Assembly (NCBI RefSeq): GCF_003669015.1 | Contig: NZ_CP033069.1 | Coordinates: 3,172,501-3,236,500, forward strand | Length of the DNA: 64,000 nucleotides | Direction of reading: 5' to 3' | Origin: Acidovorax sp. 1608163 | Lineage (GTDB): Bacteria > Pseudomonadota > Gammaproteobacteria > Burkholderiales > Burkholderiaceae_C | Position numbers and translations under genes: made by a program | The notes under the pieces: generated by a model | Databases searched by the model: none | Told to the model about the DNA's origin: nothing | What the model saw: only the letters and a program-made list of their open reading frames with translations | Shown: one piece after another, positions 1 to 59,386 of the stretch | Layout of the letters: each line of letters begins with the position of its first letter | Numbering within the stretch: the stretch's first letter is position 1

Positions 1-113
1 CCCCATGATGGCCCAATGGCTTAACTCATGCACACAAGGCATGAGGTCTATGGCGCATTGGAGCTGGGCATGCAGTAAGCTCATTTCACCGTTTCGCACC
101 ATCATTGTTTTTT

Positions 114-2426
<2,313 letters not shown>

Positions 2427-4754: not shown

Positions 4755-4770
4755 GCCCCGCCTGCGCCAC

Positions 4771-4830
4771 TATCAATTCAATAGCTGCTAGCGCTTATCC
4801 AATAAGCGCTAGAGGCATTTTTTACTTAAA
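4771..4830 (+). repeat. Dispersed palindromic repeat, copy 1
   Basis: Fills the gap between the binding-protein stop and the ATPase start. The core ATAGCTGCTAGCGCTTATCC is followed by AATAAGCGCTAGAGGC and a T-run. AGCGCTTAT and ATAAGCGCT can pair as a hairpin. Other copies lie at about 24571, 25485, 36652, 49009, 55378 and 58109. Confidence 0.85.
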
Positions 4831-25463: not shown

Positions 25464-25484
25464 CCGATTGGCTACATTCATCAG

Positions 25485-25545
25485 CCAAAAATAGGCCTCT
25501 AGCGCTTTCATACAAAGCGCAATCAGCTATCAAATAAATAGCAAA
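25485..25545 (-). repeat. Dispersed palindromic repeat, copy 3
   Basis: Just downstream of ureD. On the minus strand it reads GATAGCTGATTGCGCTTTGT then AAAGCGCTAGAGGCCTATTT. Hairpin arms are GCGCTTT and AAAGCGC. Confidence 0.8.
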
Positions 25546-25713
25546 ACGCGCACCGAATGCAGCCCCTGGATGACCCCAGATGGGGCACCAACAAGGGGCC
25601 AAGGCAACGCGCCATGAGCGCACCGCACCCTGCCTCGCCCGACGGCAACCCTGCCCGCGATCGACAACGCCTGCCCCCTCCTCTCACTGGGTGACTCGGG
25701 TTTCTACGTGTAT

Positions 25714-36633: not shown

Positions 36634-36651
36634 GGTGGTTTTATGGGTGTT

Positions 36652-36700
36652 TTGGGCTCTAGCGCATGTATATCAAGCGCTGGCCGCTATTGTTTTTGAA
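36652..36700 (-). repeat. Dispersed palindromic repeat, copy 4
   Basis: Immediately upstream of urtE. On the minus strand it reads AATAGCGGCCAGCGCTTGAT then ATGCGCTAGAGCCCAAAA. More diverged than the other copies, with a shorter pairing. Confidence 0.65.
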
Positions 36701-36752
36701 GCGCTTCGTGTGCTTGCTCAGAGGCAGTCCGGATGTGTTGAGCACAAACCAA

Positions 36753-37614
36753 CCGTTCGGGCTGAGCTTGCCTGTCCTGAGCTTGGTCGAAGGGTCGAAG
36801 CCGGGGCTTGCTCGCTGGTCTTTGCGGAGTGCCTGATGTGAGGGCGGGTGCCGGGATGTGCGCCCGGCGGCGCACCTTCTTTTCTTGCGTCGCCAAGAAA
36901 AGAAGGCAAAAGAAGGCGACCCCACTGTCTGCGTCCCCAGCGCTGCGCGCTGGGGCAACCTGCGGTGCTCGCGTCCAGCGGGGTCTCGCTCAAACTCGCT
37001 GCGCTCAAACAGTCGCGAGCCCTGATCCGCTGGCCGCTGCGCTCCTCGGCGCATACAGAGGGGGGGACAGCCAACATCCATTCGGGCCATTGCTTCGCTC
37101 GGCCCTGCATGCGCAGCGCGTGGCGCTTGCGCCCGAGAGGTGGGGTCGAGCGCAGCAACGACCCGTGTGGCTGTTTTGGCGTTCGGCTGTCCACCCCCTG
37201 TGGCTGCGCCGGTGCCGGAGCGGTTGCGGGGTGGCACGCGCGTCGAAGCGCGCGTGCTTCGTGAACTGACTTGCCGCAGCTGTTTGAACGGTGCGCCGCA
37301 GGCGCGCAATGAGTTCTGCAGCGCACCCCGCAACCGCTCCGGCGCAGGTTTGCCCCGAAGCGCAGCGCAGGGGTCGCAGACTTGGGGTCGCCTTTCTTTT
37401 GCTTACTTTTTTTGGGCCGGCCACCCGGTTGCGAAGCAAAGAAAAGTGAGTCGCCTGCCGGGGCGACAACCCGGCTCCCGCCCTCAACCCAGGCACACCG
37501 CCTGATCAACCCACAAGCCCCGGCTTCGACAGGCACAGCCCGAACGGTTGGGGAAAAGCGCTCAGGCTTCGCCCCTTCGACCAAGCTCAGGGCAGGCAAA
37601 CTCAGCCCGAACGG
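36753..37614. repeat. 862-bp inverted-repeat island within the urt operon
   Basis: Terminal arms of 42 bases (36753-36794 and 37573-37614) are inverted copies, agreeing at 40 of 42 positions and beginning CCGTTCGGGCTGAGCTTG. Nested inside are further repeats, including a perfect 12-bp hairpin at 36875-36906 (CCTTCTTTTCTT with its complement) and related TTTCTTTTGCTTAC blocks near 37396. Another partial copy of the arm, GGCTTCGACAGGC followed by CAGCCCGAACGG, is at about 37520-37550. The sequence is free of recognisable protein homology, though stops are rare and several long frames appear on both strands. It separates urtD from urtE. Confidence 0.8.
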
Positions 37615-46281: not shown

Positions 46282-48012
46282 TCAGGCGATGCGCGCAATC
46301 ACCGCGCCCAGCGCCTGTGCGGTGCCTGCCGCTGCAGCCAAGGTCACGCGCCCTGCGCGGTGCGCTGTCACCTGCATCTCCATCTTCATGGCTTCCATCA
46401 CAGCGATCACGTCGCCCTCTTGCACCGTGTCGCCATCGACCACCTTCCAGGCGTGCAGGTTGCCGGCGATGGGCGAGGTGACGGCGGCGGCATCCACCGC
46501 AGCCTCTGCCGGTGCGGCGGCACCAGCGCCCTGCCCGCCTGCTGCCGCCAAGCCTTGCAGCAGCACCGCTGGCAGGCCCAGTTGCACGCGGCGGCCGTCG
46601 ATCTCGATGGCGGTGCGCAGCAAGCTGGTGTCTGCCGCAGGCACGGCCCGCACCGCCGCGGCCAGTGGGGTGGCAAAGTCGGACTCGATCCAGCGGGTGT
46701 GCACCTTGAAGCCGTCTGCGCCCACAAAGTCGGGGTGGTCGATGACGGCACGGTGAAAGGGCAGCACCGAAGCCACGCCTTCGATCTGGAACTCGCGCAG
46801 CGCACGGCGGGCGCGGGCCAGGGCCTGCTCGCGCGTGGCGCCGGTGACGATGAGCTTGGCCATGAGCGAGTCGAACGTGCCGGGCACCACGGAGCCCGTC
46901 TGCACACCTGTGTCCAGCCGCACGCCGGGGCCGGAGGGAGCGTCAAAACGCTGCACCGGGCCGGGGGTGGGCAAGAAGCCTCGGCCCACGTCTTCGGCAT
47001 TGATGCGGAACTCGATGGAGTGGCCCAGCGGCACAGGCGTTTGTGTGAGGGACAGCGGCAGGCCGTCGGCCACGCGCAGTTGCTCCACCACCAGGTCCAC
47101 GCCCGTGGTTTGCTCGGTCACGGGGTGCTCCACCTGCAGGCGGGTGTTGACCTCCAGGAACGAGATGGCGCCGCTCTGGCTCAGCAAAAATTCCACCGTG
47201 CCCGCGCTCACATAGCCTGCAGCGGCGCAGATGTCACGTGCGGCGGTGTGGATGCGTTCACGCTGCGCGTCGCTCAAAAATGGCGCAGGAGCCTCTTCCA
47301 CCAGCTTCTGGTTGCGCCGCTGCAGCGAGCAGTCGCGCGTGCCCAGCACCACCACATTGCCGTGGGTGTCGGCCAGCACCTGGGCCTCGATGTGGCGGGG
47401 CTTGTCGAGGAACTGCTCCACAAAGCATTCGCCCCGGCCAAAGGCGGTGACGGCTTCGCGCACGGCGGATTCGAACAGCTCGGCCACTTCGTCCATGCGC
47501 CAGGCGATCTTCATGCCGCGCCCGCCGCCACCAAAGGCGGCCTTGATGATGATGGGCAGGCCGTTTTGCTCGGCAAAGGCGAGCACTTCGCTCGCGTCCT
47601 TCACTGGGTCGGGCGTGCCCACCACCAGCGGCGCGCCCACTTGCAGTGCAATCTTGCGTGCAGACACCTTGTCGCCCAGTTGGGCAATGGTGGCAGGGCG
47701 AGGGCCAATCCAGGCCAGGCCTGCATCGATCACGGCCTGGGCAAAGGCGGCGTTTTCCGAGAGGAATCCGTAGCCGGGGTGCACGGCGTCGGCGCCGCTC
47801 TTTTTGGCAATGGCCAACAGCTTTTCGACGTTCAGGTAGGTGTCTGCGGGGCGGTCACCGCCCAGACCATAGGCCTCATCGGCCATGCGGGTGTGCAGGG
47901 CATCGATGTCGGCATTGGCGTACACGGCGACGGACTGCACGCCGTAGTCGGCACAGGCGCGGGCGATGCGGACGGCGATCTCGCCTCGGTTGGCGATCAA
48001 AACTTTTTTCAT
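46282..48012 (-). CDS. Biotin carboxylase fused to a biotin carboxyl carrier domain
   Basis: A 576-residue two-domain protein. Residues 1-450 are biotin carboxylase: [21 protein letters not shown]-grasp loop [14 protein letters not shown], and active-site [16 protein letters not shown] linker leads to a biotinyl domain near the C-terminus with the biotinylation motif EAMKME. It has no carboxyltransferase domain. It is the last gene of the pyroglutamate operon and follows the PxpB-PxpC fusion, whose domains belong to the CT_C_D and CT_A_B families also found in urea carboxylase. It probably carboxylates biotin for a reaction done with those neighbours. Acyl-CoA carboxylase function elsewhere is the alternative. 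The start is the ATG at 48012. Confidence 0.9.
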
Positions 48013-48059
48013 ATCAATGTTCCGGTGTTCTTTGAAAGTGCAACCAACGGCACGAACAA

Positions 48060-49673
48060 TCAAGGCGCAAGCTCTGCAAACGGCTGGATCGGGTTGAACC
48101 GCAGCCACGCGCCCACAGGGATCTGCCCTGCGCGGTCGAGGTGGTACGGCGCCACGCAGCCGATGACCGGGTAGCCGCCGGTGAGCGGGTGGTCGGCCAA
48201 AAACAGCACGGGCTGGCCGCTGGGCGGTACCTGCAGGGCCCCCAATGCCGTGCCTTCGCTGGGCAGCTCGCCGGTGATGGCGCGGTCCAGAGGCACCTCG
48301 CCCGCCAGGCGCAGGCCCACGCGGTTGGATTGGGGCGTGACCTGCCAGCGCTGGGCTGCAAAGCGGGCGATGGCCTCGGGCGTGAACCAGTCGGTGCGCG
48401 GGCCCATCACCACGTCCAGCACCACGTCACGCTCCAGCGTGGGCAGGTCGGCGGGCGGCAGCTCGGGCGCGGCCACCACGCAGGTAGCCGGGGCGGGCAG
48501 CACGGCCAGCCAGTCGCCCACGGCCACGGGGGCGGGGCCCACATGGGCCAGGGTGTCGGTGGCGCAGCTGCCCATCACGGGCGCTTCGGCAAAGCCGCCG
48601 CGCACGGCCACATAGCTGCGCGCGCCTGCGGTGGGTTGGCCCACGGCCAGGGTGTCGCCATCGGCCAGGGCCACGGGCGCGTAGCGCGACATGGGCCAGC
48701 GCTGCCCAGAGGCGGTGATCAGCGTCAGCACGGCATCGGCACCGGTGACGGCCACCACGTTCTCGCCCACACTGCGCAGCTGCAGGCCACCGCCCACGGT
48801 CTCCAGCGCAGCCAGGTGGCTGGGGTTGCCCACCAGGCGGTTGGCAGCCTTGAGGGCGGCCTGGTCCATCGCACCCGATGCCGACACGCCCTGCCCAGCC
48901 TGGCCGTGGCGGCCCAGGTCCTGGAAGACGGTGAGCAACCCGGTGGCACGCACCTGCAACGCGGCCTGCCCTGCGGCAAGGCTGGGCTGCGTGCGGCCAG
49001 AGGGTTTAAGGTCTTTTTGGCCTGTAGCGCCCTCTGAATAAGCGCTAGCAGCTATTGATTTAGTAGCAACATCGACAAACCGCACGCGATAGCCAGGCTG
49101 CAGCAAGGCGGGCTGTGCGCGGGCAATGTCCCACATGGCCACGGGGGTGGTGCCAATGATTTGCCACCCACCCGGGCTGGCCTGCGGGTACACGCCGCTG
49201 AAGGTGCCTGCCAGTCCCACAGAGCCCGCAGGCAGGCGGGTGCGCGGCGTGCTGCGGCGGGGTACGTTCAGGCTGGGGTGGCCGCCGCTCAGGTACGCAA
49301 AGCCGGGCGCAAAGCCGGTGAAAGCCACGGTGTACTCGCTGCCCGTGTGGCGCTGCACCACTTCATCCGCAGTGATGCCCAGGATCTGCGCCACCTCGGC
49401 CAGGTCTTCGCCGTGGTAGTGCACCGGGATTTCGACCAAGGTATCGCTGCGCTCGGCGCGCTGCGACAGGTCGCGCTGCGCAATGTGCTGCACCAGCACG
49501 GCGGCGCTGGTGGCCGAGGGGCGGTAGCGCACCAGGATGGTCCGCGCAGCGGGGACCAGTTCTTCCACACCGGCCAGCGGGGTGTGCTGCAGCGAGGCCA
49601 GCAGCGCCAGGGTTTCGTCCAGGTCGGCCAGCTCGACGAGCAGCGAATTGAGGGTGACGGGCAAGAAACGCAT
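48060..49673 (-). CDS. pxpB-pxpC: Fused 5-oxoprolinase subunits B and C (PxpB-PxpC)
   Basis: A 537-residue fusion of two normally separate proteins. Residues 1-200 are PxpB (KipI-like, CT_C_D): [58 protein letters not shown]. Residues about 235-535 are PxpC (KipA-like, CT_A_B): [20 protein letters not shown] and [16 protein letters not shown]. With PxpA they open 5-oxoproline to glutamate using ATP. The linker (about residues 202-222, [19 protein letters not shown]) is encoded by a dispersed repeat that elsewhere is intergenic, so the fusion probably arose by read-through of the repeat. Downstream, 47 bases separate it from the carboxylase gene. Confidence 0.92.
49009..49072 (-). repeat. Dispersed palindromic repeat, copy 5, inside a coding region
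   Basis: On the minus strand it reads ATAGCTGCTAGCGCTTATTC then AGAGGGCGCTACAGGCCAAA, clearly the same element as the intergenic copy at 4771. It is translated in frame as the linker of the PxpB-PxpC fusion. Its length and frame contain no stop here. Confidence 0.85.
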
Positions 49674-49679
49674 GCCGCC

Positions 49680-50465
49680 TTACCCCTGGGCCGCGGCCAT
49701 GGAAGGGGCCATGAACGAAGCGATCTTGATGCCATCGGCCTCAAAGCGCTTGCGCAGCTCTTGCGCAATGCCCACGGCATCGGGGCTGTCGCCGTGCACG
49801 CAGATCGAGTCGGCCTCGATGCGCACAGTGCTGCCGTCAATGGCTTCGACCACGCCCTCGCGCACCAGGCGCACCATGCGCTGGGCAATCACTTCGGGGT
49901 CGTGCAGCACGGCGCCTTTTTCGCGGCGCGACACCAGCGCGCCCTGCGAAGTGTAGGCACGGTCGGCAAAGGCTTCGGACACCACGCGCAGGCCCGCATC
50001 GCGGGCCCACTGCACCAGGGGCGATCCGGCCAGGGCCACCAGGGTTAACTGCGGGTTGATGGCGCGAAGGGCGGTGATCACGTCCTTGGCCTGGCGGGCA
50101 TCTTGGGCAATGGTGTTGTAGAGCGCGCCGTGCGGCTTGACGTAGCGCACGGCAGTGCCCGCAGCCGCCGCCAGCCCTTGCAGGGCACCAATCTGGTAGA
50201 TCACATCGGCCACCAGCTCGGCGCTGGAGATGTCCATGCTGCGACGGCCAAAGCCCTTGAGGTCTGGGTAGGCCACGTGGGCGCCCACCACCACGCCGCG
50301 CGCTGCGGCGGCGCGCAGGGTTTGCAATATGCCGACAGGGTCGCCCGCATGAAAGCCGCAGGCCACATTGGCGCTGCTGACAATCTCCAGCATGGCGGCG
50401 TCATCGCCCATCGTCCAGGCGCCCAGGCTTTCGCCCAGGTCGCTGTTGAGGTCTATCGTTGTCAT
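49680..50465 (-). CDS. pxpA: 5-oxoprolinase subunit A (LamB/YcsF family)
   Basis: A 261-residue PxpA. The N-terminus [20 protein letters not shown] and [16 protein letters not shown] (about residue 32) are family signatures, as are [12 protein letters not shown] and [17 protein letters not shown]. It is the third component of bacterial 5-oxoprolinase, acting with PxpB and PxpC to hydrolyse pyroglutamate to glutamate. It ends seven bases before the PxpB-PxpC start and follows the pcp gene by 70 bases. Confidence 0.95.
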
Positions 50466-50535: not shown

Positions 50536-51207
50536 TCAGTGCAGCGCGCCGCCCACTTCGCGCACGTCGGCCTGCACGGCCAGCGCGGTTTCGATGGCCA
50601 CTTGCAAGCCGCGTACCTGCGTGGCCAAGGCCATGCTGGGCATGCCGGGGTGCAATGCCGCCAGCTCAGGCAAGGTGGGCACATGGATAAAGCCACCGCG
50701 CACGCCCCCTGTCCCCCTGGCCAGGTGGTGCATCAGCGCATAGAAGATGTGGTTGCACACAAAGGTGCCTGCGGTGTTGGACACCGCAGCGGGCACGCCC
50801 TGGGCGCGCATGTCGCGCACCATGGCCTTGATGGGCAAGGTGGCGAAGTACGCGGTCGGGCCATCGGTGTGCACCGCCGTGTCCACCGGCTGGCGCCCGG
50901 CGTTGTCGGGGATGCGGGCGTCGTCCACGTTGATGGCCACGCGCTCGGGCGTGATCTCGGTGCGCCCACCGGCCAGGCCCAGGCAGATCACCAGCGTGGG
51001 CTGCCACTGCGCAACCGCCTGCTGCAGGCGGGCTATGGCATCGCCAAAGACGCAGGGCAGCTGCACAGCGCGCACGGTGCAGGCACCACCGGCGGATGCC
51101 GGTGTGGCTGGTTGCCAGCCGTCCAGCGCGCGGGCCACTTCCCACGAGGGGTTGAGCGGGTCTTTGTCAAACGGCTCAAAGCCGGTGAGCAGCACGTTCT
51201 GCGTCAT
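50536..51207 (-). CDS. pcp: Pyroglutamyl-peptidase I
   Basis: A 223-residue cysteine peptidase that removes N-terminal pyroglutamate from peptides. [21 protein letters not shown] at the N-terminus is the classic motif. The catalytic residues are Glu in [18 protein letters not shown], Cys in [14 protein letters not shown] and His in [11 protein letters not shown]. It liberates pyroglutamate that the following PxpABC enzymes can open, so the operon covers release and use of this compound. Confidence 0.96.
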
Positions 51208-55377: not shown

Positions 55378-55440
55378 TGGCAGCTATATTTTTTATAGCT
55401 GCCAGCGCTTTATTTCAAAGCGCTACAGGCCCATTTGGCT
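55378..55440 (+). repeat. Dispersed palindromic repeat, copy 6
   Basis: Fills the gap between the convergent membrane-protein and diguanylate-cyclase genes. ATAGCTGCCAGCGCTTTATT then CAAAGCGCTACAGGCCCATT; an extra GGCAGCTATA before it can pair with TATAGCTGCC, giving a second hairpin. It may act as a terminator for both genes. Confidence 0.85.
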
Positions 55441-56606
55441 TAAAAAAGCACCACATCTGCCGGGGCCACCACCACCCGGTCGCGCCCGCTGGATTTGGCC
55501 TGGTACAAGGCCGCATCGGCACGGGCCAGCAGCAGCTCAAACGTGGCATCGCCCGCCTGCACGGCAGCCACCCCGATGCTGACGGTGCAGTGGGGGGCTG
55601 GGGCCTGGGGCGCAGCGCTGCGCACGGTGGCGGCCACCCGCTCGGCCACCACCTGGGCAGCGGCCAGATCGGTGCCCGGCATCAGCACCAGAAACTCTTC
55701 GCCCCCATAGCGCCCCAGCCTGTCTGCGCCGCGCAGAGCGGCACGCACCTGGGTGACCAAATCGCGCAGCACAGCATCCCCCACCAGGTGGCCGTGCGTG
55801 TCGTTGATTTGCTTGAAGTGGTCCACATCCAGCATGAACACCGCAAACGGCTGCTGGTAACGCTGCCAGCGCTGCATCTCCATGGCGGCCAGCTCCAGCA
55901 AAGCACGGCGCGCCAGCGCACCGGTCAGGCTGTCGTGCGTGGCCAGGTGCTCAAACTCTGAGCGCACCCGCTCGCTGGCCATCAGCAGCACCCCCACGCT
56001 GACGAGCAACACCGAAAAGCTGAAAGCCCCCAGGTAGGCCGTCTGCGCCAACGAGGGCGCAAAGCGGTCTGAATCCGCGCTGTCCAGCCACAGCGAAGAC
56101 ACGCCGCGCCCCACCAGCACCAGCACCTGGGCCGCCAGCACCCCGGCCGCCAGACGGCTGGAAAACCCCTGGCCGTGGCGCAACAGCAGGCGCACATGCA
56201 CCACGCACACCAGCGCCAAGGTGCTGGTGAACACCAGCACACGCAAACGGTAGTCGGGCTGCACCCACAAAAATACCGCCATGAGGGACAGCGCGCCTGC
56301 GGCCACCATGCCCCACCGCCGCCACGCCACGGGCTGGCCAAAAAAGCGCTGGCTGCCAAACAAAAAGAAGGCAAACCCCACCATCAGCAGCCCATTGCCT
56401 GCCAGCACCAACAACCAGTTGGGCAGCACGCCGCTGAGCACGAACAGCACGGTGGACGACGCACACAGCAGCGGCGCTAGCCCCCAATAGCGCAGGCCCC
56501 GGATGGACGCAGGAAAATTCGCGCGCACCCCGAGCAGCACCAAGCCCAGCACCACAGCCATGATGCCGGACATGGCAGCCAGCGAACGCAGATCGAGGGA
56601 AGGCAT
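55440..56606 (-). CDS. Membrane diguanylate cyclase (GGDEF)
   Basis: A 388-residue inner-membrane diguanylate cyclase. The first 210 residues contain about seven hydrophobic helices of a MHYT/7TM-like sensor without a recognised ligand site. GGDEF starts near residue 225: DSLTGALARRALLE, LDVDHFKQINDTHGH, active-site RYGGEEF. The inhibitory site RGAD is present five residues before the active site, so product inhibition should operate, in contrast to the PAS-GGDEF protein at 44.6 kb. The ATG at 56606 is used. Confidence 0.92.
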   Translation of the reverse strand: MPSLDLRSLAAMSGIMAVVLGLVLLGVRANFPASIRGLRYWGLAPLLCASSTVLFVLSGVLPNWLLVLAGNGLLMVGFAFFLFGSQRFFGQPVAWRRWGMVAAGALSLMAVFLWVQPDYRLRVLVFTSTLALVCVVHVRLLLRHGQGFSSRLAAGVLAAQVLVLVGRGVSSLWLDSADSDRFAPSLAQTAYLGAFSFSVLLVSVGVLLMASERVRSEFEHLATHDSLTGALARRALLELAAMEMQRWQRYQQPFAVFMLDVDHFKQINDTHGHLVGDAVLRDLVTQVRAALRGADRLGRYGGEEFLVLMPGTDLAAAQVVAERVAATVRSAAPQAPAPHCTVSIGVAAVQAGDATFELLLARADAALYQAKSSGRDRVVVAPADVVLF

Positions 56607-58108: not shown

Positions 58109-58150
58109 CTATAAAAAAGATAGCTGATTGCGTTTCATAGACGGGCCTTA
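58109..58150 (+). repeat. Dispersed palindromic repeat, copy 7, shortened
   Basis: AAGATAGCTGATTGCG is the left half of the element, but the second arm AAGCGC is missing: the sequence passes through TTTCATAGACGGGCC to the IS target site. It abuts the IS element. Confidence 0.6.
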
Positions 58151-58158
58151 GAACCTGT

Positions 58159-58635
58159 TCAAGATCTTTTGAGCAGCAGAGCCAAGAATGCCAGATGGAC
58201 GAACTGCAAGCTGGTGTTCAGCAACCTCTCGCAGTTCTTCCACAACCGCCTGTTCTTCTCCAACCAGGCAAAGCTGCGCTCCACCACCCAACGCTGGGGC
58301 ATCACCTTGAACGTATGCAGTTCACTGCGCTTGGCGATCTGTGCCACGACGTGTCCGCCCAGAATGTCTTGGACGCCCTGGGCAAACGGCCGGCCCACAT
58401 AGCCGCTGTCACACAACAGGGCTTGCACCCGGCTCAAAGCAGGTTTGCAGCGCTGCAGTGCCTGCAAAGCCCCTTTGCGGTCCGTCACCTCTGCCGTCGT
58501 CACCGCAACGGCGTGCGGCAGCCCTAGCGTGTCCACTGCAATATGGCGCTTGATTCCCGAGACTTTCTTGCCCGCGTCATAGCCCTTGCTGCCCGCCGTT
58601 TCCGTGTTCTTCACGCTCTGCGCGTCCACGATCAA
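58159..58635 (-). CDS. IS5-family transposase, C-terminal frame (OrfB)
   Basis: A 158-residue frame with the DDE catalytic part of the transposase: the first Asp in LIVDAQSVKNTE, the second in LLCDSGYVGRPF, and the Glu in RWVVERSFAWLEKNRRLWKN. The same frame stays open upstream to a stop at the A7 run near 58690, and that section (VGAAREKLGRNASSTFLIVD) is also transposase-like, so the functional protein is an OrfA-OrfB fusion made by slippage there. Confidence 0.9.
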   Translation of the reverse strand: MIVDAQSVKNTETAGSKGYDAGKKVSGIKRHIAVDTLGLPHAVAVTTAEVTDRKGALQALQRCKPALSRVQALLCDSGYVGRPFAQGVQDILGGHVVAQIAKRSELHTFKVMPQRWVVERSFAWLEKNRRLWKNCERLLNTSLQFVHLAFLALLLKRS

Positions 58636-58951: not shown

Positions 58952-59029
58952 GGAGCACGCAGCTTAGCTTCAGTCACAGTCAGCCTGCTATCAGTACCTC
59001 ATCGGGAAAAGATTTTGAACAGGTTCTTA

Positions 59030-59386
59030 GACACAGATAGGAAAGACAGACAATCTTCTCGCGGCGAGACACTCCCGCCCCTGTGCGCGGCAGCAAACGC
59101 TCCCACTAAGGGCCACCAGGTCGCGCTAAGACACCGCAGCATGAAGACGCGAGGTGAAAAGGCACCGCAAGGCGATCGAAGATGAACGATGCGTAACTGG
59201 AGCGAGTACGGTCCAGGTAGCCAATCAAGCCTCCTTGTGAAACAATCATTTGACAATTCAACCGTGGCTTTGCAAGACGCCTCATGCGCATCAGCCTTCA
59301 GCTTGATATGGCAGAGAGACACAGGCACAGCGCCGCTTTCCCAACCCTCACAGCCCTTTTTTGGCGCGTTCAAACACCACAACTTT
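59030..59386. other. Gap between IS element and secreted orphan
   Basis: A 357-bp stretch that follows the IS target duplication. I see no gene, dyad or promoter that I can support. It is lower in GC than its surroundings near 59215-59260. Confidence 0.4.

Follow-up and report, generated by a model that had tools for sequence, protein, structure and literature searches.

A dispersed two-hairpin repeat in the linker of a PxpB-PxpC fusion protein appears to have entered an already fused gene, and more than once

A REP/MITE-like intergenic repeat of Comamonadaceae, about 67 nt long and folding into two hairpins, has very probably been inserted in frame into the linker of a pre-existing fusion of PxpB and PxpC, at a tolerant site that would have been struck more than once. 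The copy that led to this reading lies in Acidovorax sp. 1608163, in a window (the whole stretch of DNA that was analysed) of 64,000 nucleotides, and its features are collected in Table 1.

The element and the protein that carries it

The host gene, pxpBC, carries CT_C_D and CT_A_B in one frame, which places it among the PxpB-PxpC fusions of the 5-oxoprolinase/urea amidolyase family. Its product lies above the cut-off of TIGR00370 (PxpB) and just under that of TIGR00724. An ORF beside pxpA at 50536-51207 (-) resembles a pyrrolidone-carboxylate peptidase by eye and would supply 5-oxoproline to PxpABC.

Five copies of the element were found in the window by BLAST. The sequence-only reading had described a dispersed repeat in the linker, and shuffles, repeat pairing, BLAST and a covariance model all agree with it on this point; the match that it quoted as 20+13 nt is real but is part of a longer, full-length element, and the three other copies that it listed (4771, 25485 and 55378) were all recovered, whereas a fourth, at 36641-36707 (-), had been missed. 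ATAGCTGCTAGCGCTTATTC occurs exactly at 49036-49055 (-) and with one mismatch at 4781-4800 (+), compared with a mean of 0.00 occurrences in 100 dinucleotide shuffles. Repeat pairing joined 4770-4816 with 49020-49066 (81% over 47 nt) and 49019-49055 with 55395-55431 (78% over 37 nt). Across the 5.05-Mb genome, the 16-mer ATAGCTGCTAGCGCTT with up to two mismatches gave 255+294 = 549 matches, as against 0+1 for the reversed-pattern control, a count in which a near-perfect palindrome may score on both strands. The shuffles and the reversed-pattern control together exclude a chance match as the source of the linker repeat, as the earlier claim of a match above chance required. Used as a plain DNA query, the linker copy found at least 41 genome matches at E<=0.001, itself included, when 40 of 270 first-look candidates were scored. 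Against a covariance model built from 43 genome copies it scored 73.6 bits (E 1.6e-20), a value that is partly by construction because the linker copy is one of the 43; all 150 scored candidates, out of 2484 in the genome, matched the model at E<=6.5e-12.

The consensus of the 43 copies from Acidovorax sp. 1608163, CAATTGCTATTAAATCAATAGCTGCTAGCGCTTATTCAAAAAGCGCTAGAGGCCAATTTTACTTAAA, is about 67 nt long with a GC content of 0.43 (about 43%), and contains two hairpins, a small one on the 5' side and a larger one that forms the core; most copies also have a T-rich 3' tail. Read from the sequence, one of its three sense frames and no antisense frame is open, and the open frame encodes a 21-letter peptide rich in small residues. 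The stem shows compensatory change across four genomes (83 cells compared with 36.4 +/- 5.2 in shuffles, 0/500 as high), in shuffles that treat 70 copies as independent though they were drawn from only four genomes; within the Acidovorax sp. 1608163 genome alone, no covariation beyond shuffles was seen. A strand-by-position tally of the copies gave nothing clear. Rfam returned 0 matches at gathering score in the window, which rules out a known Rfam RNA as the identity of the element.

In the protein, the segment predicted to be disordered coincides with the element-encoded residues: in an AlphaFold model from a 36-row alignment (mean pLDDT 86.4), pLDDT falls below 50 solely at residues 206-224. 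Among 120 close homologues, mean identity to the window sequence was 75.5% for the element residues, 70.8% for the other linker residues, and 88.9% and 93.5% for the two domains, and a single linker length was found in 119/120, with no empty site in a close strain. From these identities and the uniform linker length, the element peptide appears to evolve as linker and to be fixed in the close homologues.

Table 1 Features of the pxpBC locus and copies of the element (positions in the window unless a locus is named)
Feature	Position	Strand	Basis
pxpBC, PxpB-PxpC fusion (5-oxoprolinase subunits B + C), 537 aa	48060..49673	-	ORF + PF02682 + PF02626
PxpB domain (CT_C_D, PF02682), residues 1-191	49101..49673	-	Pfam
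PxpC domain (CT_A_B, PF02626), residues 262-527	48093..48890	-	Pfam
pxpA, directly upstream of pxpBC, same strand	49680..50465	-	ORF, Pfam/TIGR match
Biotin-carboxylase-like ORF (named by eye), directly downstream of pxpBC, start uncertain	46282..48108	-	ORF
Full-length dispersed two-hairpin element, in-frame copy in the pxpBC linker, residues 201-223	49006..49072	-	BLAST, covariance model, shuffles
Hairpin core of linker element (model columns 25-49), host-subtype part	49024..49048	-	Core comparison
3' arm of linker element, resembling other sense-group linker copies more than genomic copies	49006..49023	-	Arm comparison
Element copy, not called in-gene	4764..4830	+	BLAST
Element copy, divergent	25481..25547	-	BLAST
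Element copy, divergent, absent from the sequence-only reading	36641..36707	-	BLAST
Element copy	55378..55444	+	BLAST, repeat pairing
In-frame copy, patatin-like protein, residues 267-290, behind Pfam match 55-253			
In-frame copy, MacB-like ABC transporter, residues 244-267, antisense; ABC_tran ends 183, MacB_PCD starts 295			
In-frame copy, ComEC, residues 299-322, inside Competence match			
In-frame copy, RsmB, residues 245-267, antisense, inside RsmF-B_ferredox match			
Loci of these four in-frame copies, in the order given above	L151 (1501-1567), L120 (1451-1517), L309 (901-967), L117 (1510-1576)		

Repeated insertion at the linker and the history of the hairpin core

The covariance model called the element in the linker at E<=0.001 in 25 of 101 sources (12/38 and 13/63 in two sets), one of the 101, L294, being a separate gene pair; the sole other place matched at this threshold, L017:6543, is outside the gene. 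In 20 loci (19 at E<=0.001 and L236 at E 0.015) the element is in sense orientation directly behind PxpB, and all 20 copies have their start 601 nt downstream of the gene's first base. In L278, L281, L283, L284, L286 and L291 (all at E<=0.001) it is reversed and occupies the far end of the linker just before PxpC, and reversed copies uncalled by the model were recognised by eye in L282 (E 1.3) and L292. A quick tree of the domains only, with a midpoint root, took 100 of the 146 fusion loci, L291-L293 being left out. In it, the 20 sense rows and the six reversed rows (L278, L281, L283, L284, L286 and L282) were explained by one change each, with support 99, and element-free fusions lay between the two groups. 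The opposite orientations, different linker ends and separate parts of the tree indicate that the PxpBC linker received at least two independent insertions, as judged from these comparisons. The sense part of the tree includes Acidovorax and Paracidovorax, and element-free genes are nested in a larger clade of sense rows, so that losses or several gains are needed. The element-free pxpBC of Cupriavidus (L012-L014, L016, L018) falls inside the Acidovorax-like clade, and two Cupriavidus genomes also lack the element; this placement suggests horizontal gene transfer.

A different, GC-rich palindromic repeat (PLPLGEGRGEG / PLTPALSPEGRG) was found in the linkers of L292 and L293, from G255 and G390 of genus g95. 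With up to 40 candidates scored, it had at least 36 and at least 37 matches in these two genomes, three in G447 and one in G196, and 0 in the Acidovorax sp. 1608163 genome. Median linker length was 36 aa in element-free loci (111 loci), 45 in sense loci and 39 in reversed loci, in a comparison that left out nine loci with doubtful remnants. Since the element adds about 22 residues, this small gain implies that some of the original linker has disappeared or been replaced.

We compared the linkers with the repeat families of their hosts. Each of 11 tested sense-carrier genomes had at least 136-150 element matches, and two more had at least 146-150, while two Cupriavidus genomes, one Variovorax and P. 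veronii had 0 and P. citrulli had 1, and none of these five carries a linker copy. P. anthurii had 17 element matches and a linker match at E 2.2 only. Linker presence does not follow the host repeat family everywhere. Four Comamonas genomes had 65, 147, 92 and 11 matches yet no called linker copy (possible remnants were seen by eye), and G238 had a called linker copy yet 0 matches to the L283 copy. The L010 linker copy matched at least 41 places in its own genome, at least 40 in G048 and 11 in G052, and none in G000 (Acidovorax sp. 1608163), G013 or G059. The reversed L283 copy matched at least 40 places in its own genome, at least 40 in G000, and none in G238 and G047, and it had from 13 to at least 41 matches in G272, G436, G447, G155, G255, G390 and G341, which are genomes with that linker kind or relatives.

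The hairpin core and the arms of the sense copies point to different histories. Core columns 32-33 read TT in 89/89 copies of Acidovorax sp. 1608163 and in 0/26 copies of G047 (19 AG), a comparison that took 89 of 149 other own-genome places and 26 of the 30 G047 loci (the other four being close to contig ends), the latter selected with a TT-type model. An alternative tally by reads, in which the palindrome may count twice, found a TT start in 89/94 own-genome reads and 0/39 G047 reads. Mean identity of the L089 core, out of 25 positions, was 18.9 with Acidovorax sp. 1608163 copies vs 14.3 with G047 copies, and the corresponding values were 13.9 vs 19.7 for the L010 core and 14.8 vs 19.5 for the L011 core. 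This agreement of each core with its own host subtype would be expected if the sense copies had arisen by separate insertions at the same place, each with the subtype of its host, and the 5' arms of L089 and L010 (17/24, unremarkable) are no closer to each other than L089 is to genomic copies (averages of 16.4 and 16.9). We regard separate insertions of this kind as a real but clearly lesser possibility. Against them stand the identical offset in 20/20 sense loci, the L089-L010 3' arms, which agree at 14/18, a level reached by 2/89 own-genome copies (compared with L089) and by 0/26 G047 copies (compared with L010), and the L010-L094 5' arms, which agree at 20/24, one more than the closest genomic copy compared (19). 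These data, above all the shared offset and the 3' arm, suggest that one old sense insertion, with a core later replaced by host copies, fits best. The linker cores of genus g5 (L242, L246-L249) appear by eye to be drifting relatives of each other with no clear host-copy match, and those of L094 and L095 are decayed; since the g5 cores look inherited, the host-typed pattern rests on one sister pair, Acidovorax vs G047/G048 (MAGs). Somewhat short of an even chance, in our estimate, is the broader idea that the repeat family keeps rewriting the protein, with the in-gene core converted by the host subtype, the linker evolving with the selfish repeat, and the PxpBC linker serving as a recurrent acceptor of different repeats. 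If core conversion is true, proteins would go on being edited by short repeats after the insertion itself.

An action of the linker repeat in the mRNA through its hairpin, on stability or on pausing between the domains, is improbable. Compared with shuffles, folding was favoured in L009 (z -2.28) and L010 (z -2.19), and in L094 (z -2.43) with a different fold, but the window's linker copy (z -0.08) and L011 (z -1.23) stand against this, as do the intergenic copy at 4764 (z -4.34) and the decay of the L094 and L095 cores.

Order of fusion and insertion

The sequence-only reading had also placed the repeat between the two domains, which holds, since residues 201-223 lie between domain matches that end at 191 and start at 262, and had taken it for the spacer that made the fusion. 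PxpB-PxpC fusions without the element are found in Cupriavidus, Variovorax, Pseudomonas, Photorhabdus, Providencia, Shinella, Agrobacterium and others, rhizobia included, and the covariance model gave no match in their linkers. PDB entry 3oep is also such a fusion, TTHA0988, 494 aa long and, to judge by its prefix, from Thermus. When 399 family genomes were searched, both domains lay in one frame in 63/63 of those matching at E<=1e-100 (two of these matches had one internal stop), a threshold that favours long matches, so that more divergent separate genes would have gone unseen in the remaining 336 genomes. Split genes had seemed present in G341, G255 and G390, first listed as PxpC only, and these proved to be full fusions with long linkers. 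In the genus, 14/47 genomes matched at E<=0.001, eight with a close orthologue and six with distant relatives only, and all eight close orthologues were fused across the linker (one truncated by a contig end). Separate pxpB and pxpC genes do exist, as had been stated: the pair examined, in G008 (36-37% identity), consists of ORFs at 866-1615 and 1612-2568 that overlap by 4 nt. The proposed search for strains in which the repeat lies between two separate genes found no such locus among the loci examined.

From the element-free fusions, the 63/63 fused matches and the overlapping separate pair, we conclude from sequence comparison that the repeat was inserted into the linker of an already fused gene and did not create the fusion. 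That the repeat once separated pxpB and pxpC, and that the two were fused by an uninterrupted frame running through it, is very improbable, for although the repeat sits exactly between the domains and separate genes occur, such an origin is at odds with the element-free fusions in many lineages and the one in the PDB, with the uniformly fused family matches, with two insertions in opposite orientations in separate parts of the tree, and with a separate pair that has no spacer. An order of events with the fusion first, and remodelling of the linker by intergenic repeats later, is better supported than a repeat-made fusion.

On the reading that we prefer, insertion into an existing fusion, the element, which presumably moves or once moved, would have entered the linker in frame by way of its sole open sense frame. 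Its small-residue peptide would be tolerated by the disordered linker and may serve as linker filler, while many insertions into folded parts were presumably lost, with selection as the filter. The hairpin core would then have been converted by host copies. The site would have been struck separately by the sense element behind PxpB, by the reversed element before PxpC, and by the GC-rich repeat in g95. Since the same linker appears to have taken up repeats on several occasions among related bacteria, protein linkers can come from intergenic repeats. One site with both orientations and two repeats provides natural replicates in which to ask what kinds of insertion a protein can accommodate.

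Genomic context and comparison with known repeats

In Acidovorax sp. 1608163, 5/90 element copies were called in frame within genes, with a home-made codon score and a non-random sample of 90 of the 150 scored places that included the best- and worst-scoring. Three of the five are in a linker or at the border of a domain; the other two fall within a Pfam domain match, so that folded parts do not exclude the element altogether. The remaining 85 copies were distributed, by a rough gene call, as 47 between tandem genes, 31 convergent, 4 divergent and 3 unassigned. The element is REP-like in the broad sense, as a high-copy hairpin with compensatory change across four genomes that lies, in Acidovorax sp. 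1608163, mainly in tandem and convergent gene gaps. One copy immediately precedes the ORF of a LolD-like ABC ATPase (named by eye; L003:794-1609, -) and could be read as its N-terminal extension; the true start of that ORF probably lies after the element.

Rickettsia palindromic elements (RPEs) are palindromes that occur between genes and in frame inside genes, where they add tens of residues. Our element is alike in being a palindromic repeat found both between genes and in frame within them, but RPE hosts are Rickettsia, the likeness is one of description, and what sets the element apart is one linker that was apparently struck several times, by two different repeats and in either orientation. 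RPE-1, -4 and -6 are discussed in the main text of PMC3733652, together with in-frame intragenic palindromes in Rickettsia and other REP-rich genomes. The same text describes GTAG-/CGTC-tagged REPs as short palindromes that lie for the most part in the gaps of tandem or convergent gene pairs, with some in ORFs, and reports, for two Xanthomonas species, a REP at nearly the same place in recB; that main text does not mention Acidovorax, Comamonas, Delftia or Burkholderia. Unlike these tagged REPs, the element consensus has neither GTAG nor CGTC (AATAGCTGCTAGCGC), and in 3/43 copies there is a G at the position where it would complete GTAG. PF01797 (Y1_Tnp, RAYT) had two matches in Acidovorax sp. 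1608163, one each in G056 and G058, where the repeat has 1 or 0 matches, and none in the repeat-bearing genomes G255 and G390. An element copy at E<=0.01 stood beside a PF01797 gene in 2/10 loci, and none was seen as a flanking pair. No consistent association with PF01797 genes was seen that would point to a RAYT as the mobiliser. No terminal inverted repeats of the MITE kind were seen by eye in the consensus.

Among betaproteobacterial repeats, BRE, as described in PMC3110155, is about 90 bp long with 69% GC, has up to 29 copies (1 in Acidovorax sp. JS42) and occurs in Betaproteobacteria including Comamonadaceae, with some copies within coding sequences. The element shares its dispersal in Betaproteobacteria, Comamonadaceae included, and its occasional place in coding sequence. 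Its identity with BRE was rejected, since 67 nt, about 43% GC and 549 matches set it apart from that description. Enterobacterial small mobile sequences of 103-168 bp, intergenic and also inside genes with open frames (PMC2759123 and PMC2229807), are by that account other elements in other hosts. Intragenic palindromes in Rickettsia and other REP-rich genomes and BRE copies in coding sequences show that the kind of phenomenon is already known. In the open-licence literature, no published account of the element was recognised by title or start of abstract, and no paper matching four element 12-mers was, by title, on bacterial repeats. Judged in the same way, this literature gave nothing on the origin of the PxpB-PxpC fusion, and neither repeated capture by one linker nor host-typed cores were found in the open-licence literature searched.

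Further repeats were noted in passing. Inverted repeat arms of 55 nt (CCTGAGCTTGGTCGAAGGG) lie at 36753-36807 and 37560-37614, 752 nt apart, and a peptide LRQAQPERLG in an ORF of L121 beside the element perhaps derives from a related repeat. A 38-nt inverted repeat (79%) at 58133-58170 and 59007-59044 flanks 836 nt and is possibly an insertion sequence.
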